From NCBI RefSeq assembly GCF_022174665.1, contig NZ_CP076562.1, forward strand, positions 1,364,001 through 1,428,000: 64,000 bases of DNA. The letters are read 5' to 3'. The notes under the pieces were generated by a model, which saw only the letters and a program-made list of their open reading frames with translations, was not told the origin of the DNA and made no database searches. The DNA is from Eubacterium sp. MSJ-33 (GTDB taxonomy: Bacteria; Bacillota; Clostridia; Lachnospirales; Lachnospiraceae). The position numbers were made by a program, and so were the translations under genes. Positions 38,830 through 56,393 of the stretch are shown piece after piece; the first letter of the stretch is position 1; each line of letters begins with the position of its first letter.

Positions 38830-38929
38830 TAAAAGAAAAAAGCCCCAAAACCCAGTAAATACAAGGTTTTCAAGGCTTTTTCACAAGCAGGGGATGAGAG
38901 AATCGAACTCCCGCCAAAGGTTTTGGAGA
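38830..38929 (-). other. attL: left copy of the 100-bp attachment repeat
   Basis: The sequence is identical to 56266-56365 except at one base (38846). It contains the 3' half of tRNA-Trp from the anticodon loop and the tRNA terminator. The bases to its right (38930 onward) do not form a tRNA 5' half, so this copy is not a functional tRNA gene. Confidence 0.93.
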
Positions 38930-38987
38930 CAACCTAGACATCCCTCAGAAGCCTTGATTTTACTGGGTCTTTTCACTTTCAAGTTTC

Positions 38988-39233: not shown

Positions 39234-39989
39234 ATGAGAAAGTTTAAGACAGCAATTTTATGTACATTTATTTCTATCGCTATGTTATCTACATGTGGAT
39301 GTAGCAATCAGGATTCATCAAATTCTAATGTTGCTTCTTCTACCAATGCAACTGTAACTGATGCCGGAAAAGAATCTGATATCGAAAATGTATCTACAAC
39401 AGAGTTAGCAGATCTTTCAGATAATCAGGAAGTTTCTGAAGAAACTACGGAAGCTATCACAGAAGAAAACACTACTACCGAATCTGCATCTGACAAAAAA
39501 CAGGAAACAACTACTTCAAATAAAAAAGATGAAGCTAAGACCGACAACAAGAAAGCAGAGACAACTCAGCAGACAACAACTCAGACTGCAACTACACAAG
39601 CACAGTCAACAACTCAGCAAAATACAGAGCATCAGCATGTATGGGTTGATCATAAGAAAACTGTACACCATGACGCTGAGTATGAAGATAGGGTTGTGAC
39701 TAAGTATAAGGATGAAGTATATAGTGTACTGATTTGCAACCAATGCGGAGCAGATATTACATCTATAGGTTCAACAGCACATTATGCAGCTTCAGGGACC
39801 ATGATGATAAATTGTGGTACTGATGAAAATCCATGGTGGGTGGAAGTGGAAAAATGTAGTAGTTGTCATTCTGAGTGGAGACATAAAGATGTTCCATATA
39901 ATGACACTGAAAGAGTCAAAGTTAAGGATGCTTATGATGAAGAAGTGACTGATTATCAGTATTGTAGTGGCTGTGGGCAAAAAAGATAA
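39234..39989 (+). CDS. Secreted lipoprotein with a Cys-rich zinc-ribbon-like domain
   Basis: The 251-residue protein begins with a signal peptide ending in STCGC, a lipobox-like site, then a Ser/Thr/Glu-rich linker (about residues 28-125) as found in wall-spanning stalks. The C-terminal 120 residues start with EHQHVWVDHKK and hold three CxxC pairs (CNQC, CSSC, CSGC), probably binding zinc. The family is not recognised beyond similar surface proteins of gut Firmicutes. It is the cargo gene nearest the left end, is transcribed toward the interior, and has its own terminator. Confidence 0.65.
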   Translation: MRKFKTAILCTFISIAMLSTCGCSNQDSSNSNVASSTNATVTDAGKESDIENVSTTELADLSDNQEVSEETTEAITEENTTTESASDKKQETTTSNKKDEAKTDNKKAETTQQTTTQTATTQAQSTTQQNTEHQHVWVDHKKTVHHDAEYEDRVVTKYKDEVYSVLICNQCGADITSIGSTAHYAASGTMMINCGTDENPWWVEVEKCSSCHSEWRHKDVPYNDTERVKVKDAYDEEVTDYQYCSGCGQKR

Positions 39990-40283: not shown

Positions 40284-40790
40284 CTAAGCAACCAATGTGT
40301 AATCTCCGCTCAAAATCAAATCATACATCTTTTCAGTGAACTGCACAGAAAGAAGCTCCTGAATATCTCTGCCAAAGGTATAAAAGGAAGCATCCAATGT
40401 CTTAATTGGTAAATCTGTTCTTTTCTTTGCATCCTCAAATGAGATTGGAGAATGGAAGCTATGATTTTCAAGCTCGTAAAAAAGCATATACCGCTTCTCT
40501 CCATTTTCCAGTTCATGAACATGGATTGCACATGGTTCAAGCAGTCTAAGGAAGCAAGATTTCATATTATAATAATGTTCCTTTTTCTCCCTATACTTAC
40601 CTTCATTATCATACTTATCATTGTAATATGTTCTCTCATATCGACAGCTTAAACGCCATCTGCGATATTCTTCCTGCTTATCTCTACAGTTTTTTGCCCT
40701 CTTATTACAGCTATAAAGAGCATCTTCCAACATTTTTGATGTAATGATTTTTTGTTTTAGATTCTTAATGTACTGTGTCGATGTTGTCAT
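40284..40790 (-). CDS. Hypothetical protein of the mobile element
   Basis: The 168-residue soluble protein is basic in its first half (many K, R, Y and Q) with a compact C-terminal half (EDAKKRTDLPIKTLDASFYTFGRDIQELL). No family is recognised. It lies downstream of the relaxase gene on the same strand, with its own ribosome site (CAGGAGGAA) before the ATG. Confidence 0.6.
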   Translation of the reverse strand: MTTSTQYIKNLKQKIITSKMLEDALYSCNKRAKNCRDKQEEYRRWRLSCRYERTYYNDKYDNEGKYREKKEHYYNMKSCFLRLLEPCAIHVHELENGEKRYMLFYELENHSFHSPISFEDAKKRTDLPIKTLDASFYTFGRDIQELLSVQFTEKMYDLILSGDYTLVA

Positions 40791-40922: not shown

Positions 40923-42497
40923 CTATTTTCTTCCAATTTTTCGCCTTTTGACTGTCTTTTCTTCCAATGGCAGATAACTTTTTATAATCCACGTCATGCA
41001 TTGTGCATATTCTTCCATGATTTTTTTGATTGCCTCTGCACAACGGAATGCCTGATCGGTCATTTGCTGATATTCTGCATCTGCCTCCGAACATTGGTTT
41101 ATAAGCTGTTGCAGATCTTTGATATCTGTCAACCCATGTTGCCGGATTATCCCCTGCATATAGAGGTTTCTGTCTTGGATATTTTTTTCTTCCATTTGAA
41201 TCTGTTTCTTTGCTGAGATTTTTTCTTGCACATTAAATATGGTATATTTTTTGATTTTCGACTCCAATTTTTCAATTTTTTCTGAAGATTTTTTATTTGC
41301 CTCTAAAGTCCGTTCTTTTTGTCTCTCAATCTTCTGTATTGTTTCTTGAAGCATCTGCAGTTTCCCCTGTAATGGTCTCAGCTTTTGATTGATAAGCTCT
41401 TGTTCTGCATATTTATGATTTAACTCTCTCTGAAGCTCTTCCAATTTTGCCTCTGCCTGTGCAGATAACTCACGCATACGCTCTGAGATACGGTCAATCT
41501 CTTTCTGGAGCATCAAAGCCATATGGTTATATTTTTTAATGTCCTCGTTGATCTGTTTTCTGTCTGACAACATTTTTATATATCTGCTGGATGCTCCCAT
41601 ATGGATGGAAGGTATCTCATTTTGTCTGCCTTGATTTTTATAAGAACGGCTGTCTACTCTTGCCTGATAACCTAGTTGTTCCAAGTGCTGGTTCACTGTT
41701 ATCTCCCAGTTTTTTCTTCATGTAAGCTCTGCTTCCTGACTGTTCCAGATTTCCACAATGGGGTTTCTCCGTCCATATTTGCTTGTCTTGGGGGTACGTC
41801 CCTGTCGTTCCAGTTTTTTCAGAGTTCCTTCTGTGGCTGTCATTCATACAAATTTTCCATTCAGTTTATACTTGTACTGTTTTTCCCAGCCTTCTGTCTT
41901 TTTTATCTTGTATTCTTCTGCTGTGAATGCTTTCTGTGTTCCATCTTTGACACACAGATATTCAATTTTTGACTTTGCCTGCCATTTTCCCTTTTCATCC
42001 AGAGGGCGCATTGTAAGCATGATATGCGCATGTGGATTTTGAAACTGCATTTGATTTATGTCATGTACTACATTTCCTGCTTCATCCACAGGTTGTCCAT
42101 ATTGATTTCTGACTGGTGGTACATGGATGGAGAAATCTGCACACATTCCCTGATTTACAAAATTCTCCTGTACATAGTCCTGTACAAGTTTAATCTGTTC
42201 TGCTTCTGTCATTTCTATGGGAAGTGCAACTTCTATCTCTCTCGAAAGCTGTGCATCTGAGGATTTCTCTGCAAGTTCCACTGCATTTCATAATTTCTCT
42301 CTGTCCTTAAAACTTTCTGGAGCCTGTACCGGCAACATTATTTCTGAATAAGCAATCCATTTTTTATTTGTATAATCATGCTCTATCCCATCATATTCAT
42401 TGACAAGTTTTGTACCGCTTCGATAGGCTGCGGAAGCTACTGCTGATCTGCCAGCTTTTCTTCCTATGATTTTCACACTTAAATGATATATAGCCAT
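40923..42497 (-). CDS. mobA: MobA/MobL-family (MOBQ) relaxase read through three in-frame TGA codons
   Basis: The product would be 524 residues: the relaxase that nicks oriT and leads DNA transfer. The N-terminus MAIYHLSVKIIGRKAGRSAV, the aromatic YRSG motif, the histidine motif NPHAHIMLTMRP and a long C-terminal coiled coil are typical. The frame is intact but contains TGA at codons 70 (42290-42288), 218 (41846-41844) and 260 (41720-41718). Codons 70 (L-x-NAVELAEK) and 260 (ELT-x-RKNW) are where relatives have Trp; 218 fits an aromatic. No frameshift, TAA or TAG interrupts it, and it ends with TAG. Six other Trp are TGG. It may need UGA decoding as Trp, or be a recent pseudogene. GGGAGGAAT precedes the ATG at 42497. 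Confidence 0.85.
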
Positions 42498-42594: not shown

Positions 42595-43512
42595 TTACCT
42601 ATGCCCTCTCACATGGTGTTTCTCCATGATCTTCTGTTTCTTCTGCTCTTTTTCCGGGTATAATATTGCGTCCATTCTCCTGATGATCTCGGAAGCTGTC
42701 TGTTGGATTGTTTTGAGGCTGTCCTTGAACTCTCCCATTTTCTGGCTACTGCTCCACCCTGCAATATATCCAAAAGAGTAATCCGATGTATCTATGCCAT
42801 AATGCTGGCAGACTGTATATGCAACACTTTCTGCCTGCACCTCTTTTGTCTTTGTATCCAGTTTTCCCTCTGTTCCTGTTTCTTCATCATGTAAAATGGC
42901 ATGGCTTAGTTCATGAATTGCAGTTTTTATTGTCTGCATTTCTTCCATTCCTTCCTGTACAACAATCTTCTTTAATGTCTGACTGTAATATCCGTTGACA
43001 CTTTCCTTTGCTATGTTTCTTATCTCGATTGGCACCGGGGAACTGGCTTTGATTGCCTCCATGAAATTTTGATATGCTTCTATATCTCCCTCCAATGGAG
43101 TTACTATCTGTGGCAGTTCTTTTCCTGTTGTCTGGGAAATATCAAAGACCGTTGCCACTTTATATGCAGGCACAATTACCTCTTGTCTCTCTATGATCTC
43201 TTTCCCTGTTTTTTCATCTATCTTCTTAACATCCTTTTCCACCTTATAAGGAGCAGGAGCAAGGATTCTGATTCCCTGCTCCCCTTTGTTTACCTGTCTT
43301 TGAAATTTTGTTTTTCATGCCGCGTATCCTGCCACCATTGTTGCATCTGGATTCTGCATGGCAATCAAAAGTATATTATTGAAACTGTATGGATGAAATC
43401 TGGACATGATCTTTAGATAATGCTTATACTTATCACTGTCAAACAGTTCCTTGATTCCTTCTTCCAGTTTTGTTGTGATTTCTTCAATGTTATTATTCTG
43501 TACCTGCTTCAT
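42595..43512 (-). CDS. ArdC-like antirestriction/zincin protein with one in-frame TGA
   Basis: The 305-residue product joins an ArdC-type N-terminal ssDNA-binding region (LEEGIKELFDSDKYKHYLK, MSRFHPYSFNN) to a metallopeptidase-like domain with HELSH (in TAIHELSHAI). ArdC-type proteins protect incoming single-stranded DNA from restriction. Codon 66 (43317-43315) is TGA within VAGYAA-x-KTKF, where relatives have Trp. The frame continues to a TAA. The ATG at 43512 is chosen because AAAGGAGA lies nine bases upstream. It lies directly behind the relaxase-oriT region, fitting early expression after transfer. Confidence 0.8.
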
Positions 43513-43633: not shown

Positions 43634-44590
43634 CTATCTGCCTTTTCCTTTTGTTTTTTTCTCTGTTTTTCCAAGTGTGTTTACCATTTTATCTGCTATA
43701 CTGATTTTTCGGGTAAGCGAATCATATCTATACACTTCGTTTGACAGCACATCCAGTTTTGAGGACACTTCTTTATTCACACCGTCTACCACTGATTTCA
43801 GATATCCTATGTCTGGTGCCTCACTGATTGGGAGTGCAAGTACCTCATGTCTGCTGCTTGGAATAATATAAAAATCTTCCCCTATCCGCTCTCTTACCTG
43901 GTCCATTGCTTCTGGGGATGTGAGGATTGCCGCCCCATCATATGCTGCTTCATTTGTAAGCATATATATCGGAGATGATGTCTGCCCCATATACCGTGTT
44001 TCATCTATATAGCTCTGTGGCATGTGACGACTTTTCATAATTCCACATACAACCTCTGTCAAATCTCTGCATACGAATTTTTCTTTTGCTGTATTGGCTT
44101 TAGCTGTCTGTAAGATTTCCTTCTCTGTCATTCCAACCATTCCACATATTTCTGTTGTTACCAGATAACTTCCGATATTCCCCACCTTCATTCTTGGTAT
44201 GATGGCAAGATCTTCTATTCTTTCATGTGGAACCGTCTTTAATAATTCCTTATTCATCTCTCCATTTATAACTGCACAATATAAATTTTTCTGTGCATCT
44301 TGATAGGTTGGCTCTGGCACAAATGTATCATCTATCTTTTCTTCACGCATACACTCTGTATAGTTGTCTGCAACCTGTCGAGCCAGATCTTCCACGGAAT
44401 CCCCCTGCATATACTTTTCATATTGATTATCCATATATATGATTGGAACTGTGTTGCAATCTCCTTCCCTGATTGCAAGCGCATCTCTTTTCCCATTTAT
44501 TTTCTGCAACTGCAGTTTCTCAATGTCTGCATGTTCCAATTCCTGACTTAAATGCTTCTGAAATTCATCCATAAATTCTTCATATGTCAT
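43634..44590 (-). CDS. DUF5688 family protein
   Basis: The 318-residue protein starts MTYEEFMDEFQKHLSQEL and contains VPIIYMDNQYEKYMQG and the later VNTAKEK/FVCRDLTEVVCG-like region typical of DUF5688. This family is widespread on conjugative and mobilizable elements of Firmicutes and has no known activity. It starts six bases after the DUF3847 stop in the transfer operon. Confidence 0.78.
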   Translation of the reverse strand: MTYEEFMDEFQKHLSQELEHADIEKLQLQKINGKRDALAIREGDCNTVPIIYMDNQYEKYMQGDSVEDLARQVADNYTECMREEKIDDTFVPEPTYQDAQKNLYCAVINGEMNKELLKTVPHERIEDLAIIPRMKVGNIGSYLVTTEICGMVGMTEKEILQTAKANTAKEKFVCRDLTEVVCGIMKSRHMPQSYIDETRYMGQTSSPIYMLTNEAAYDGAAILTSPEAMDQVRERIGEDFYIIPSSRHEVLALPISEAPDIGYLKSVVDGVNKEVSSKLDVLSNEVYRYDSLTRKISIADKMVNTLGKTEKKTKGKGR

Positions 44591-44825: not shown

Positions 44826-46436
44826 TTACATATTTTCTATGTTCTGATTGAATGTTTCTATGTCTGCTGATCGGTCTCTCAATTGTGGAATTTTATAATA
44901 GGGTGCTTTCTTGATTCTGTTATACCCTTTTGGTGTAATCAGTATCAGTTCTCCTGTATCTGGCAGTGTAACCAGATCTTCCGATTCCACAATATTTCTC
45001 TTCTCATAGGATATACTTCTATGATTGGATGCTCCCTTTCCCTGATTGTAACTGTTTTTTCTCTCTGTATATTTTCCACTCCAGCTTATGATCTTGTCCT
45101 GTGTTTTCTTGGATGTTGCAGAAAGCACAGCTACATATGCACAATTGCTGATTAAATCATCTACCTCACTTTCCCTGTATGCAGAAAGCAGTGCATCTAC
45201 ACTCTGCGTAACCAGTATCAGGCTTACCTTTCTTGACCGTAATGTTCTTGCTCCATCCAGCAGCCTATCCAGTTTTCCCTGTGACAGGATTCTTGGAAGC
45301 TCATCTATGATAAACAGAATTGGTTCTTCCTCTTCTTTTCTTCCTTCCAATTCTGATAATGTTTGGTTCAGTATCAACTGCAATACATCATAGTAAGCAG
45401 TCAGTTTATTCTCCTGTATGGATAGATAAATGTGCTTGCCATGATTCAGCATATCCGGGTTCATTTTTAATGGATTTTCCTTGAATGCATAATGAATGTT
45501 CTGATCTGTTGCAAAGATTGTCAGATGCATGGTTACTTCCGATGCAATACCTGATAATGTTTCTTCCGCAATTTCCAGATAAGAACCAAGAAATAATATT
45601 TCTATCTCTTCCTTTCCAAGGTTCTTTTGAATTTCCTCCAATGTTTTCTGCATTGGTTGTTTCAGGATTTCAACACATATGTCTGGAAGATTGTGATATT
45701 CTTTCTTATAGTAATAGATAAGGAGACCTGTCAAAAGCTGTCTGGCTGACTGCTTCCAGAAAGTATCACGCAATTCTGCCGGCATTGGTATCAAAGAAAC
45801 TGCCGTGATCTGCATACATTCCATAATCTCCTGCTCTGTTGAATTTTCATTTAATTTGTAAAATGGATTATACCCATATGTTCTTCTGTCATTGGGATTG
45901 AAGATTATGTTCTCTTCTGTTCCAAGCTTTGCTGTCTTTCTGGATAACTCCCCCTTGATATCAATGGCTAGTAAACCAATATTGGGATTGGATAACAAAG
46001 TCGGAATGATGAGACAGGAACTTTTTCCAGAACCGGAACCACCGATAATCATGATATGTCCATCTGTCTGTAAATCTTTTCTTACATATTTCCCTTGGTA
46101 TTTTCCCAATATGATTCCTGTGGGTTCTCCAGACAGGTATCCCTTATCCACAGGTGGATATTTCGCTCTGTCTCTAAGGCTTGTCTGATATGCTGGATCT
46201 AATTGATGATTCATGGAATCAAGCATTCCAAACTGCCGTTTTCCGTTTTTCTTTGCCGTTTTATTTTGATTCCATATATAGATTGTAGGCAGAAATGAAA
46301 AGAATAAAAACAGCAGTCCTGTCTTTGTATCTTTCTGCAGTTCTGAAAGTGTTTTATTCATGATCTGCATCAATCCATACATGCTAAAAGGCTGCGTCCA
46401 CAAGCCTGTGTAAAACAGCCAGTTCAGAATCTTCAT
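44826..46436 (-). CDS. VirD4/TraG-type coupling protein
   Basis: The 536-residue membrane ATPase has two N-terminal hydrophobic helices, Walker A GGSGSGKSSC near residue 132 and Walker B LFIIDELPRI, with LVTQSVDALLSAY following. It brings the relaxase-DNA complex to a mating channel. No channel genes are on the element, so it should work with a helper ICE or plasmid. It starts two bases after the stop of the upstream gene. Confidence 0.9.
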   Translation of the reverse strand: MKILNWLFYTGLWTQPFSMYGLMQIMNKTLSELQKDTKTGLLFLFFSFLPTIYIWNQNKTAKKNGKRQFGMLDSMNHQLDPAYQTSLRDRAKYPPVDKGYLSGEPTGIILGKYQGKYVRKDLQTDGHIMIIGGSGSGKSSCLIIPTLLSNPNIGLLAIDIKGELSRKTAKLGTEENIIFNPNDRRTYGYNPFYKLNENSTEQEIMECMQITAVSLIPMPAELRDTFWKQSARQLLTGLLIYYYKKEYHNLPDICVEILKQPMQKTLEEIQKNLGKEEIEILFLGSYLEIAEETLSGIASEVTMHLTIFATDQNIHYAFKENPLKMNPDMLNHGKHIYLSIQENKLTAYYDVLQLILNQTLSELEGRKEEEEPILFIIDELPRILSQGKLDRLLDGARTLRSRKVSLILVTQSVDALLSAYRESEVDDLISNCAYVAVLSATSKKTQDKIISWSGKYTERKNSYNQGKGASNHRSISYEKRNIVESEDLVTLPDTGELILITPKGYNRIKKAPYYKIPQLRDRSADIETFNQNIENM

Positions 46437-46936: not shown

Positions 46937-48223
46937 TTATATCTCCTTCCTTTTCTTCCTTATTCTTCTTAACAGTTCCGTGCAGGGTTTATACCCGGCA
47001 TCAAGAAGCCATCCATAATATTTCTCTATCGGAATGTTCAACTGAATCACTGTTTTTCCTGCCATTTTTCGGTCTGCATTTGCGGTTCTGTATGCCTGTG
47101 CTTTTGTCATTCCACCATGCCTCAGCTCCCTGCATTCTGCCAGATAAACTTCTTTGTCATACTTATGGATTTCTGTGATTGTCTCTCGAAACCACTTGTC
47201 TACATCTGCCAGCTTTGCTTCTATTCCTGCCATGTAGTAATAATTTATCCACCCCCTTGTAAGCTCCATCAGCTTCTGCACAAAGTCCTTATTTGAAACC
47301 ATCTCATAATATTCCTCAATGATTTTCAACATTCTGTCCTGCAGATCTGTGATTCTTTCATCTGTTACATCAAACACATACCCAAATTCTATTTTTTTGA
47401 ATGTATATCCTAGAAATTCTATCTTGGATGCATCACATACATTGGACTTCTTATAGTTGATTTCAAGATTCAGATCTTGTTCAATGAATGTGAGTACCTT
47501 CTCATACCGACAGCAAGCCTCCCATTCACTTCCACACAGGATGATACAATCATCTGCATATCTGCTGAATGTGATATTCTGGTCCTGCAGAAACTGGTCT
47601 AATTCATTCAGAAAGATATTGGATAGCAACGGTGACAAAGGACCACCTTGTGGCACGCCCTTTGTCACTGCTACTGTTCCTTTTTTAGGTATGAGAGCTT
47701 TTGTAATCAGATATTTGTATATCAGTTTCAAAAGCTCCTCATCCTGTATTTTCTTCCTCAAAATCTGCATCAATGTATCATGTGGTACATTGTCAAAGAA
47801 TTTTTTCAGGTCAATTTTGATGATATGAGTTTTCCCTTTGTTTATCTCATTCAAGGCATGCAGAAGTGCTGGATAACAGCCTCTGTCCTTGATAAATCCA
47901 TAACTGAATTCTGAGAAATCCATCTGGTAGATTGGAGAAAGGACTTGTACAATGGATGCCTGTATCAGCCTGTCTACGGCAGCAGGGATACTGAGCATCC
48001 TATACTGTGCATTTCCCTTGGGAATGTAAGTGCGTAGCAATTTGATTGGCTTGTACTTCCCATCCAATATCTGACATTTTAATGTCTCATACATGTCTGG
48101 GAACTGTCCTTTCAACCGTTTTACCTTCACCCCATCGATTCCTGCACAGGCATTTTGATTCAATGTCCTTAATGCATGTTCCATATTCTCTTTTTCCACT
48201 ACCTGATCTAAGAGATTACCCAT
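46937..48223 (-). CDS. Group II-like reverse transcriptase not contained in an intron
   Basis: The 428-residue protein has the reverse transcriptase palm motifs KIDLKKFFDNV, GVPQGGPLSPLLSNI and the catalytic YADD, followed by a maturase-type X/GIIM domain (RGWINYYYMAG). It resembles proteins of group II introns, but there is no room for intron RNA. DUF2815 ends three bases before it and the next gene starts immediately after it. It is therefore a free-standing operon gene. The C-terminal 80 residues differ from usual maturases. Possible roles are making cDNA from an element RNA, repair during single-strand transfer, or phage defence. Confidence 0.88.
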   Translation of the reverse strand: MGNLLDQVVEKENMEHALRTLNQNACAGIDGVKVKRLKGQFPDMYETLKCQILDGKYKPIKLLRTYIPKGNAQYRMLSIPAAVDRLIQASIVQVLSPIYQMDFSEFSYGFIKDRGCYPALLHALNEINKGKTHIIKIDLKKFFDNVPHDTLMQILRKKIQDEELLKLIYKYLITKALIPKKGTVAVTKGVPQGGPLSPLLSNIFLNELDQFLQDQNITFSRYADDCIILCGSEWEACCRYEKVLTFIEQDLNLEINYKKSNVCDASKIEFLGYTFKKIEFGYVFDVTDERITDLQDRMLKIIEEYYEMVSNKDFVQKLMELTRGWINYYYMAGIEAKLADVDKWFRETITEIHKYDKEVYLAECRELRHGGMTKAQAYRTANADRKMAGKTVIQLNIPIEKYYGWLLDAGYKPCTELLRRIRKKRKEI

Positions 48224-48226
48224 CTG

Positions 48227-48811
48227 CTATCCTTCCTCTTCCAAAGGTCTAAATACATTATCTTCTGTTGACTCTTCTGTTTCTTCTGACTCATCCACAA
48301 TTACATCGAAATCATCTTCTGCACGTGTACGGCCGCCCATTGCTGGTGTCTGTTTTACAAGCTGAATATTTCCAAGCATACATGTAATACCATTGTTTGG
48401 TCCTGCCTTATATGGAAGAAATGTCAATGCAATGTTGCATACACAGCCTGAGTAAATCTTCTTTTTGTCAAAGATTGGATGCACCTTCTGGTCTACGACA
48501 TCTGGAGCAATCTTTGATTTTGAAACAATATACAGGCTGTCCTTAAATGCACTGTCTTTCCCATCTCTTTCATCTCCATCTTTAACTGGGATATAAAGAT
48601 TTGGTGGCACTTTTCCTTTCCAAAGTTCCCTTTTTCCTTTTTCAATGGCTGCCTGTACTGCCTTCTCCACCTTTGCCTTGGTTTTCTTATCATATTTAGA
48701 GTAAATGCAGGTACACATGTACCTTCCATTGCTCCCATCCTTGGCAAAAGAATATGGTTCAAAGCAGTGCAGATACGCAGCAATGGCTTGGATGATAACC
48801 TTATTCTCCAT
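48227..48811 (-). CDS. DUF2815 (phage-type ssDNA-binding) protein
   Basis: The 194-residue protein has the layout of DUF2815 proteins, predicted OB-fold single-strand binders of phages: WKGKVPPNLYIPVKDGDE, then KIYSGCVCNIALTF and PAMGGRTRAEDDFD, ending in an acidic tail as in SSB proteins. The ATG at 48811 is preferred because AAGGAGGCAG precedes it. A longer frame to 48979 overlaps the regulator gene. It lies directly before the reverse transcriptase gene. Confidence 0.78.
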   Translation of the reverse strand: MENKVIIQAIAAYLHCFEPYSFAKDGSNGRYMCTCIYSKYDKKTKAKVEKAVQAAIEKGKRELWKGKVPPNLYIPVKDGDERDGKDSAFKDSLYIVSKSKIAPDVVDQKVHPIFDKKKIYSGCVCNIALTFLPYKAGPNNGITCMLGNIQLVKQTPAMGGRTRAEDDFDVIVDESEETEESTEDNVFRPLEEEG

Positions 48812-48847
48812 AGCTCTGCCTCCTTTCTTACGATATAGTTCTATTAA

Positions 48848-51514: not shown

Positions 51515-51614
51515 TATACAGAGATGATTTTATTATATTTTTATCTACTGCAAATAAAATAGTATATAATAATTCTGATATATGCATATTGCAAAGACAG
51601 ATAAGGGGGTACAA

Positions 51615-53522
51615 ATGAATACACAAACATATCAAAATCAACTAAATACCATTGCTTCCACACTGAATATAAATATGAGAAATCTCAGCAATCTCAGAGA
51701 TATTGATAAAGCCATGATTGTATCTGCATGTTTACTTTCTATAAAATTCAAAGAAGATGGTTTATTTGATTTTAGCTGCCTTTCTTCTGATGAAGAAATA
51801 ACAGATGGTGCAAAGCTTTATTCTTTGCTTGCTGATGAGTTGGCAAACATCATTTCTGACGAAGCCACTCTTACTGTTATTATGAATTGTTTTCTCTGTG
51901 TAAAGCAGATTGAAAGTATCAATCATATTCATTCAAAATTAGGAACCACACCTATCAAATATTTTTTGCAATATTTAGATGAGAATCTTGTCAGTTTCTG
52001 CAAGGAACATAATTTGAATGATGATTATCTCGGTTTGTTTTACACCCTATTTATGAAATATTCTTCAGATTCAAAGCATTTGGGTGTTGTTGTGACTCCT
52101 ACATATATCATGGATTTATGTGCTGATCTGATTAACCTTAATGCTTTTGACATTATCATTGATCCGTGCTGTGGTACAGGCAGTTTTCTCATTTCATCTT
52201 TTATAAATAAAGAAGTTGGAAAGAGTAACCTGTATGGATATGATATTGAACCACATATGTTTACTATCACCATTACAAATTTGATTTTAAGAGGTTGCAG
52301 ACCAGATCATATAACATGTAGAGATTTTCTTGAAACTCCAAGTTCTCTGATAAAAGACACAGTGAAGGCAACTGTTGGATTTATGAATCCTCCATATGCC
52401 CAAGGGAAAACAGATGCTTCACTCAGTGAGATATTTTTTGTGAAGCATTTTCTTGATTCGCTGTCAGATGGAGCAAGATGTGCAGTCATTGTTCCTGCAG
52501 CCACCTTTGTAGATTCCAAACAGACAAACTGCTATAAATTTGACATCCACAAGCACCATACATTAGAAGGAATTATCACATTAAATCCAAATACTTTCTA
52601 TGGTGTTGCTACCAATTCTGTCATTGCCATCTTTACAGCACACCAACCACACCCTACAGACAAGCTCTGTAAATTTATAGATTTTAAGGATGATGGCTAT
52701 ATCAATCATCCACATACCCAAAGGATTTACACACCAGAGGCAGATATAAAAAAAGAATATCTATTAAAAGTTTGGAACAATGAGATAAAATCAGATGCCA
52801 ACTTCTGCATACAAACTACTGTACAAAAAGATGATGAATGGCTATTTAATTTTTATCATGCCAACTTAAATATACCAAGTGAAAAAGTGTTTGAGGAAAA
52901 AGTGAATAACTATCTCACATTCCACTTCAACATGATATTAAATGGCAGATCTGAGTTATTCCAAAATGGACCTGAAAAAGGTACTTATATTCCACTTGAA
53001 GAACTTCAAAATAAAAAGTGGGGTGTATTTCAGCTTGGAGAGGATTTCATTATCTCCGGTGCTAAAATTACAAATGAAAAAAAATTGATGGAAGGAAATG
53101 ATATTCCAAGAATAACCACTTCCAAATTTGACAATGGTTATGAAGATTTTTATTCCAAGATTTTATCCAATGGAAAAATGGCAAAGCTTAATGCAAGGCA
53201 AGTAGTTACCATAGAAACAGCATCCAAAGGAACAACCTTTTATCAACCGAGTGATTTTATCTCCAATCCTCATTTAATTACTATCAAATTCAAGGAAAGA
53301 GAAATGAACCAATATACAGGACTTTTCCTATGTGCCTGCATCTCAAATGCCATTGATGGAAAATATTTTTACGGCTATAAATTCAGTTTGTTTCGAATTC
53401 TAAAAGAAAAAATCATTCTTCCTGTCACCAAGAATGGTGAGATTGACTATGATTATATGGAGCAGTATTGCAAAAATCTTTTCATTAAAAAAAATAATAT
53501 AGTTCATGAATATGGATTTTAA
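51615..53522 (+). CDS. Orphan N6-adenine DNA methyltransferase with a fused target-recognition domain
   Basis: The 635-residue protein has the SAM motif DPCCGTGSFLIS near residue 185 and the catalytic NPPY (FMNPPYAQGK), as in type I HsdM and type IIG enzymes. The last 200 residues resemble a half HsdS target-recognition domain (WGVFQLGEDFIISGAK, ending NGEIDYDYMEQYCKNLF). No nuclease motif or separate HsdR is on the element, so it should methylate without cutting, perhaps to protect the element. The ATG at 51615 follows AAGGGGG. Confidence 0.85.
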   Translation: MNTQTYQNQLNTIASTLNINMRNLSNLRDIDKAMIVSACLLSIKFKEDGLFDFSCLSSDEEITDGAKLYSLLADELANIISDEATLTVIMNCFLCVKQIESINHIHSKLGTTPIKYFLQYLDENLVSFCKEHNLNDDYLGLFYTLFMKYSSDSKHLGVVVTPTYIMDLCADLINLNAFDIIIDPCCGTGSFLISSFINKEVGKSNLYGYDIEPHMFTITITNLILRGCRPDHITCRDFLETPSSLIKDTVKATVGFMNPPYAQGKTDASLSEIFFVKHFLDSLSDGARCAVIVPAATFVDSKQTNCYKFDIHKHHTLEGIITLNPNTFYGVATNSVIAIFTAHQPHPTDKLCKFIDFKDDGYINHPHTQRIYTPEADIKKEYLLKVWNNEIKSDANFCIQTTVQKDDEWLFNFYHANLNIPSEKVFEEKVNNYLTFHFNMILNGRSELFQNGPEKGTYIPLEELQNKKWGVFQLGEDFIISGAKITNEKKLMEGNDIPRITTSKFDNGYEDFYSKILSNGKMAKLNARQVVTIETASKGTTFYQPSDFISNPHLITIKFKEREMNQYTGLFLCACISNAIDGKYFYGYKFSLFRILKEKIILPVTKNGEIDYDYMEQYCKNLFIKKNNIVHEYGF

Positions 53523-54770: not shown

Positions 54771-56015
54771 TCACTCAATATTCAAATGAAGATCAAGACC
54801 GGGAAGATTGATTTTTGCTGCCGCCTCTCTTTTATTTTTTTCAATAATATGTACATATGTTTTTTCACATACCTCACGGCTGTTCCCAAGAATTGCACAT
54901 ATAACCTCAATTGGAATATCATTGGCAAAATAAAAGGATGCACATGTATGTCTTAATTCATGCGTTCCTGTAATTTTGTTTTCAATGCCTGCCCTTTTCT
55001 GTATATAGGCTAATGTCTTGGCTATCCCTGAGACATTTGTTGTATTTCCATTTCTGGTTTGCAATACATAATTCTCCGGACTGTATTCTTCCAAACTCTT
55101 TCTATAATATAAGATAAGTTCTCTGGCACTGCTATTGATTGCCACATATCTTGTCTTTTTATTTTTTGTAAAATGCTGTATTACTTCTATATTTTTATAG
55201 ATTTTATTTCTTTTCATTTTTTCAGGTTGTGTAGAATCATATGCCGGATTATCCATGGTGATAAGTGTTTTATTGATTGTAATATAATTCTCCTCAAGAT
55301 TAATGTCTTTCCATTGCAAAGCAAGTAACTCTGATATTCTAAGTCCAAGGAAAAGATTTGCAGCAATCATAGGTCCATATTTATAAATTAAATCACCATC
55401 ACTATAGGTACTCAGAGCTGCCATTATAAATTTCTTTGTATCTTCTTCTGACAGATAATGAATCTCTTTTGTTGGTTTGATAATATTGGTTTCAGATGGT
55501 TTAACAACTAATTCCATTGGATTGTCAAATTTGTGTACCGTTGATGTATAACGGTAGAAAGCATTCAAAGCATCATATGTTTTCTTGATGGTGGATTTAG
55601 AATAATGATCTACCAGATTCAGTTTGTTTATCAAACTCTGTAATTCTTCTGTGGTGACAGACTGATAGCGCATATGTCCAATGTCAGATGGCTCAATCTG
55701 ATTTTTAATGGTTTTATTCAGACTCTTAATAGATTGCGGTACAAGGGTAGGAGCTTTTACATTTTGTACCCACATATACATAGCATCTGCTAATGGAGTA
55801 TTTACTTTATAATCCTTTTTCTGATCTATCTTTTTCTCTTTAATTGACATCTTCTTTATACATTCAGGAATAGATGAACAGGTAACACATATACAGGTTC
55901 TTTTTCCTCTATCTGTAATAATCATTTTTGAATATCGATACTTTCCATTTTCAAGCTGAGTAATGGCACCTTTATTCTTACCTAAATTCAATGTTTTGTT
56001 TTCTGTTTTCTCCAT
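54771..56015 (-). CDS. int: Tyrosine integrase of the mobile element
   Basis: The 414-residue site-specific recombinase has an N-terminal arm-binding region, a SAM-like core-binding domain and a catalytic domain with Arg in GLRISELLALQW, HxxR in HELRHTCASFYF and the nucleophile in KTYVHI. It inserts and excises the element at tRNA-Trp, and lies beside attR. The ATG at 56015 is chosen because AGAGGAGG precedes it. The stop is TGA. Reading through would add a short tail to a TAG. Confidence 0.93.
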   Translation of the reverse strand: MEKTENKTLNLGKNKGAITQLENGKYRYSKMIITDRGKRTCICVTCSSIPECIKKMSIKEKKIDQKKDYKVNTPLADAMYMWVQNVKAPTLVPQSIKSLNKTIKNQIEPSDIGHMRYQSVTTEELQSLINKLNLVDHYSKSTIKKTYDALNAFYRYTSTVHKFDNPMELVVKPSETNIIKPTKEIHYLSEEDTKKFIMAALSTYSDGDLIYKYGPMIAANLFLGLRISELLALQWKDINLEENYITINKTLITMDNPAYDSTQPEKMKRNKIYKNIEVIQHFTKNKKTRYVAINSSARELILYYRKSLEEYSPENYVLQTRNGNTTNVSGIAKTLAYIQKRAGIENKITGTHELRHTCASFYFANDIPIEVICAILGNSREVCEKTYVHIIEKNKREAAAKINLPGLDLHLNIE

Positions 56016-56265: not shown

Positions 56266-56365
56266 AAAAGAAAAAAGCCCCTAAACCCAGTAAATACAAG
56301 GTTTTCAAGGCTTTTTCACAAGCAGGGGATGAGAGAATCGAACTCCCGCCAAAGGTTTTGGAGAC
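56266..56365 (-). other. attR: right copy of the 100-bp attachment repeat
   Basis: This copy overlaps the 3' half of the complete tRNA-Trp gene from the anticodon loop onward, plus its terminator (AAAGCC ... GGGCTTTTTT, 56270-56316). The intact tRNA is therefore a chimera of host 5' half and a 3' half on the element side of the crossover. Confidence 0.93.
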
Positions 56366-56393
56366 CCCTATCATACCATTTGACCAATCCCCT
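56323..56393 (-). tRNA. trnW: tRNA-Trp (anticodon CCA)
   Basis: The 71-base cloverleaf has a perfect 7-bp acceptor stem (AGGGGAT/ATCCCCT), the D-arm GTCA/TGAT, anticodon loop CTCCAAA and T-arm GGGAG-TTCGATT-CTCTC. The discriminator is G, as in bacterial tRNA-Trp. CCA is not encoded. The anticodon stem (GGGGT/ACCTT) has two G-U pairs, and the D-stem has a U11-A24 pair, the pair found in the UGA-suppressing form of the E. coli molecule. It is the insertion site of the mobile element. Confidence 0.95.

Follow-up and report, generated by a model that had tools for sequence, protein, structure and literature searches.

Stop-codon recoding in phages (PMC11210395) and near-cognate reading of UGA by an altered tRNA-Trp (PMC13092985) are both already known. 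According to PMC11210395, which cites Borges et al. 2022, crAss-like and other gut phages are recoded with translation table 4 or 15. These phages resemble the locus described here in using a stop codon as sense on mobile DNA in a standard-code host, possibly to time the expression of a subset of genes. The present element differs from them in being mobilizable rather than a phage, in lacking any suppressor tRNA that we could find, and in placing UGA at only a minority of its Trp codons, in transfer-side genes alone. The near-cognate system, which depends on a tRNA-Trp(CCA) with a 4-bp anticodon stem, is similar in its CCA anticodon, the weak top of its stem, and the absence of a UCA tRNA. In the locus studied here, however, the stem carries G.U wobbles rather than mismatches, A24 is present, the host uses UGA as a stop, and putative sense UGA is found only in the genes of one element. 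Phages that exhibit tRNA-dependent lysogeny (PMC10865867) likewise integrate in a host tRNA gene whose function must survive, whereas here the tRNA is restored by 100 nt of att identity and there is no separate tRNA gene. Finally, tRNA-borne integrative mobilizable elements with MobA/MobL (MobQ) relaxases share the tyrosine integrase, att repeats, relaxase and coupling protein of the present element, which is set apart by the putative use of UGA for Trp in the genes for relaxase and ArdC. No prior report of conserved UGA-Trp codons in the relaxase or ArdC of a mobilizable element from a standard-code host was found in a search confined to open-licence literature.

The window, by which we mean the entire 64,000-nt stretch of Eubacterium sp. 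MSJ-33 DNA that was analyzed, contains a direct repeat of 100 nt (99% identity between copies) that covers tRNA-Trp from its anticodon loop onward, including the 3' end and sequence downstream, and brackets an element of ~17.4 kb (Table 1). The two att copies do not differ in their tRNA half, so the anticodon remains CCA. The integrase (PF00589) and the bounding repeats together meet the criterion for an integrative element, and a second att copy is also present in the related G025 element discussed below. We noticed no VirB4- or VirB6-like ORF between 38.9 and 56.3 kb, albeit without comparing every ORF with known families. We regard the ~17.4-kb unit as an integrative mobilizable element that occupies the single tRNA-Trp gene of the host, a view held at somewhat better than even confidence jointly with the readthrough explanation given below. 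A weak tmRNA-clan match at 38895-38956 is not a tRNA but the att copy of the tRNA-Trp half.

Table 1. Features of the element and its integration site (window coordinates).
Feature	Position	Strand	Remarks
Left att copy	38831..38930	minus	displaced tRNA-Trp 3' half (from anticodon loop) plus 56 nt downstream
Small secreted/lipoprotein-like gene	39234..39989	plus	left end of element; also in G025 element
orf168, unknown	40284..40790	minus	conserved in G025 element
MobA/MobL relaxase	40923..42497	minus	three in-frame TGA; PF03389 8.8e-78
TGA at MobA Trp260	41718..41720	minus	common to window and G025
TGA at MobA Trp218	41844..41846	minus	TGG in G025
TGA at MobA Trp70	42288..42290	minus	common to window and G025
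ArdC-like antirestriction protein	42595..43512	minus	one in-frame TGA; ArdcN 5.7e-11; directly upstream of relaxase
TGA at ArdC Trp66	43315..43317	minus	common to window and G025
DUF5688 protein	43634..44590	minus	intact in window; G025 has TGA replacing Arg124
T4SS coupling protein (VirD4/TraG)	44826..46436	minus	Trp55 TGG in window, TGA in G025
Unknown protein, 165 aa	46439..46936	minus	
Free-standing group-II-type reverse transcriptase	46937..48223	minus	no TGA
Enc34-type ssDNA-binding protein	48227..48814	minus	no TGA
N-6 DNA methylase-like gene	51582..53522	plus	named by reading sequence; also in G025 element
Tyrosine integrase	54771..56015	minus	no TGA; PF00589; 74% identical in G025
Right att copy	56266..56365	minus	completes functional tRNA-Trp gene
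tRNA-Trp (CCA)	56322..56393	minus	host's only one; integration site; G27.U43, G28.U42, U11-A24

The reverse transcriptase gene lies between those of the ssDNA-binding and coupling proteins in both elements (L014 2970-4313 in G025), and an Rfam scan found no group II intron RNA. The N-6 methylase and ArdC apparently represent two anti-restriction strategies carried by one element.

A preliminary description of this DNA had proposed that the relaxase gene is complete apart from TGA codons at which Trp is expected, and that this element has, now or in the past, had its UGA codons decoded as Trp. The frame from ATG 42497 to TAG 40923 is indeed open but for TGA at codons 70, 218 and 260, its six remaining Trp codons are TGG, and it contains no frameshift, TAA or TAG. 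Alignment of homologues over the suspect codons, which had been set beforehand as a check, gives Trp or an aromatic residue at all three sites: every homologue examined has Trp at codons 70 and 260, codon 218, for which only an aromatic residue had been claimed, is Trp or Tyr in homologues with close alignment there, and an alignment with four relatives shows nothing but Trp at any of the three. The solved NES nicking enzyme/relaxase 4HT4, which the relaxase profile matches, also has Trp aligned with W70 and W260. When TGA is read as Trp, the gene yields a full MobA/MobL protein that meets the Tyr and HxH motifs of PF03389, Y25 and H156/H158 being invariant in the homologue alignment. Reinitiation at GTG codons just 3' of TGA70 was rejected because the product would lack the catalytic Tyr25, and as no consistent stem-loop was found 3' of the TGAs we do not claim a recoding hairpin. 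The single TGA in the ArdC-like gene likewise occupies a codon that is Trp in all aligned homologues. Nucleotide searches of the complete 2.9-Mb genome show that the exact relaxase gene is single-copy and that two further, more distant relaxase genes are both stop-free.

An element 71-84% identical to that in the window is present in genome G025, which represents a different species of the same genus, and it is likewise located in tRNA-Trp, with a second att copy ~20 kb away. Three of the four TGA sites in the window (ArdC 66, MobA 70 and MobA 260) are also TGA in G025, in which codon 218 of MobA is TGG and the coupling protein has a TGA at Trp55, which is TGG in the window. Neither element has TGA in the genes for the integrase, the reverse transcriptase or the ssDNA-binding protein. 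An additional TGA in the G025 DUF5688 gene (L014 6953-6955) replaces Arg124, which is AGA in the window and Glu, not Trp, in one aligned relative, and this is a small point against reading UGA as Trp. The proposal that UGA is, or was, Trp for this element is supported by Trp in the homologues and by retention of the TGAs in the sister copy, but the TGA at Arg124 does not conform to it. Carriers are known from these two genomes only, and their two elements belong to one clade. Compared with the window, the transfer module of G025 (L014) has the opposite orientation with respect to the integrase and tRNA-Trp, and host genes on the two flanks have swapped sides.

Comparison of the window and G025 elements by the Nei-Gojobori method, with TGA counted as Trp, gives dS values of about 1.15-1.7, and the dN/dS ratios are rough because synonymous sites are near saturation; host flanking genes are partly less diverged (dS 0.2-1.3, window versus G025). 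Ratios for the interrupted genes (dS 1.2-1.6) are 0.136 (mobA), 0.105 (ardC) and 0.065 (traG, in which TGA occurs only in G025), those for the uninterrupted neighbors are 0.122 (reverse transcriptase) and 0.118 (ssb), and every mobA or ardC segment between or past the TGAs also has a low value (0.05-0.23). On these ratios, mobA, ardC and traG are under purifying selection like their uninterrupted neighbors. Pseudogene decay could account for the in-frame stops and for the non-Trp TGA in the G025 DUF5688 gene, but it is contradicted by the selection data and by the sites shared between elements, and we consider it very improbable. It had been argued in the preliminary description that random decay would also give TAG and would hit Gln codons. 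The compared genes of the element contain 40 TGG, 209 CAG, 77 CAA and 29 CGA codons that a single transition would turn into a stop, and all five Trp-site stops are TGG to TGA changes with no instance of TAG or TAA; in mobA and ardC, stops occur only as TGA at Trp positions, without frameshifts. Moreover, a sister copy showing further damage would have refuted the proposal, and the G025 copy instead retains these TGAs, is under purifying selection and shows no damage by TAA, TAG or frameshift. Sequencing or assembly error might be suspected given that the changes are single-base G to A substitutions, but the occurrence of identical TGAs in an independent and divergent genome contradicts this explanation, which can be put aside for practical purposes. 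Conservation of the TGA positions themselves is less secure. Among 23 shared Trp columns, TGA is present at 4 in each element with 3 in common (hypergeometric P=0.009) at a dS of about 1.2-1.5, and the two elements have the same third base in 21/23 of the Trp columns compared with 283/441 of those for Lys, Glu and Gln (P=0.006). When only columns with A on either side are considered, however, agreement is 3/5 for Trp versus 159/317 for the others, and positional conservation is therefore suggestive only.

The host itself uses the standard code. Release factor RF2 (prfB) is present with its usual UGA frameshift site, TGA terminates 99 of 679 long ORFs (15%) in 864 kb of host sequence, and a stop-extension scan of the same 864 kb gave no other convincing TGA-interrupted host genes. 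A TGA that was flagged within prfB is accounted for by a chance upstream frame next to the usual CTTTGAC frameshift site. The tRNAs of the complete genome (n=40) were located by the Rfam model and typed with ARAGORN, and only one is a tRNA-Trp, with anticodon CCA. A tRNA-Trp with a UCA anticodon, which had been predicted, was not borne out, being absent both from these 40 tRNAs and from the element, on which ARAGORN and a permissive Rfam scan detected no suppressor tRNA. A genetic code 4 host is ruled out by prfB, the TGA stops and the lack of tRNA-Trp(UCA), and selenoprotein synthesis by the lack of a Sec tRNA among the 40 and the presence of Trp at the TGA sites in homologues. Given the standard host code and the TGA-free related genes, the inferred use of UGA as Trp belongs to the element and not to the host.

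The two wobble pairs of the host tRNA-Trp (Table 1; position numbers are our own assignment) lie atop the anticodon stem and are accompanied by the U11-A24 pair. The 4-bp tRNA-Trp(CCA) of the Blastocrithidia type, in which 27:43 is unpaired and A24 is lacking, is a different type, since a 27:43 wobble and A24 are present here. The base following the in-frame TGA is A in 9/9 cases over both elements versus 19/36 cases after TGG, and in E. coli an A directly 3' of UGA favors leakiness. In that organism, UGA reading by tRNA-Trp(CCA) rises with a weakened 27:43 pair or with A24 (PMC13092985), and readthrough of TGA mainly inserts Trp and increases in some growth conditions (PMC11126739). The weak stem, A24, and the A after TGA make partial near-cognate readthrough the simplest mechanism, and the absence of a UCA tRNA makes decoding by the CCA tRNA-Trp more likely. 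Near-cognate readthrough by the host's sole tRNA-Trp(CCA), with its weak upper anticodon stem and A24, is thus the likeliest decoder, in the absence of protein or ribosome data. We propose that the relaxase and ArdC genes may still be functional with UGA at conserved Trp sites, and that full-length proteins would arise when this tRNA outcompetes RF2 at the UGA codons. As the host retains UGA as a stop, readthrough should be partial, and would hold relaxase and ArdC at low or conditional levels, in effect as a throttle. We favor this explanation for the element in tRNA-Trp with moderate confidence, and Trp insertion, the CCA decoder and the throttle are all inferred. Against it, three UGAs in series, each read through at an ordinary rate, would permit only very small amounts of full-length relaxase. 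Moreover, the same type of tRNA-Trp is found in many genera of the family, so that the tRNA is permissive rather than specific, and a leaky tRNA alone is insufficient to explain TGAs confined to the element because this tRNA type is common and related coupling-protein and relaxase genes in the genus are TGA-free. Retention of UGAs by this element alone is most naturally ascribed to a throttle or gate on transfer, but this too is an inference.

Three UGAs in one gene would be easier to keep with an efficient decoder, and a cognate tRNA-Trp(UCA) might be supplied intermittently by a co-resident phage, a plasmid or another host, the genes being otherwise silent; table 4 recoded phages do exist, some with Sup-TCA tRNAs (PMC11210395). 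No such decoder is present in the complete genome, however, the same TGAs persist in two species, and Trp codons are mostly still TGG (in both elements at 18/23 shared columns), and we find intermittent supply distinctly improbable. The UGAs might alternatively gate transfer if expression of the relaxase, ArdC and the G025 coupling protein depends on how tRNA-Trp or RF2 stands in the cell, with the choice of tRNA-Trp as integration site being functionally linked. Consistent with gating, Trp-site TGAs are confined to transfer-side genes, the first in each being near the N-terminus (codons 66, 70 and 55), and their positions are conserved between elements; both TGA-containing elements lie in tRNA-Trp, and element-like homologous gene sets elsewhere (in G000, G009, G011 and G298) have no TGA, with no tRNA found in the stretches fetched. 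The association nevertheless rests on one clade and two elements, integration leaves the anticodon unaltered, and no sensor is visible, and gating of this kind seems unlikely to us. Its stronger form, in which UGA is a built-in gate on conjugative transfer read by the very tRNA-Trp whose gene is occupied, and in which the supply of that tRNA or excision of the element sets relaxase and coupling-protein synthesis without a suppressor tRNA, tying integration site to codon meaning, is a little more doubtful still. If near-cognate readthrough by the host tRNA-Trp is correct, the element represents sense use of a stop codon under natural selection without the suppressor tRNAs to which phage stop recoding has been attributed, and would serve as a natural reporter of UGA leakiness in these Firmicutes. 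It also follows that relaxases of this type are split or dropped by standard gene callers, which leaves such mobile elements undercounted.

No close copy was found in viral_contigs, either with the MobA, coupling protein, ArdC and integrase sequences or with TGR patterns, and plasmids and phages yielded only relatives below 60% identity. A family-wide relaxase search (397 genomes, 334 genera) returned only distant homologues, all stop-free, and the sole match in the family-wide integrase search was the integrase itself. For all 30 coupling-protein matches from the genus, the matched domain is free of internal TGA; the G025 TGA lies upstream of this domain. The genome from which the window comes contains another, related element (L066 4480-12135; G000:C1:2880479-2888134), which encodes coupling protein, DUF5688 and MobA homologues at 29-50% identity without in-frame stops. 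Other genomes also show traces near tRNA-Trp. Two copies of its 3' segment lie 1 kb apart in G019:C30 (L143, ~358 and 1383), probably as a relic of another integration. In G009:C50 (L137 2017-3126), from another species, a coupling-protein remnant with an internal deletion is located ~1 kb downstream of tRNA-Trp, which suggests that a related element was inserted at this site earlier. In most draft genomes of the genus (L071-L085), the contig with tRNA-Trp breaks off 100-900 bases away on the 5' side of the gene, which suggests that a repeat is present there.
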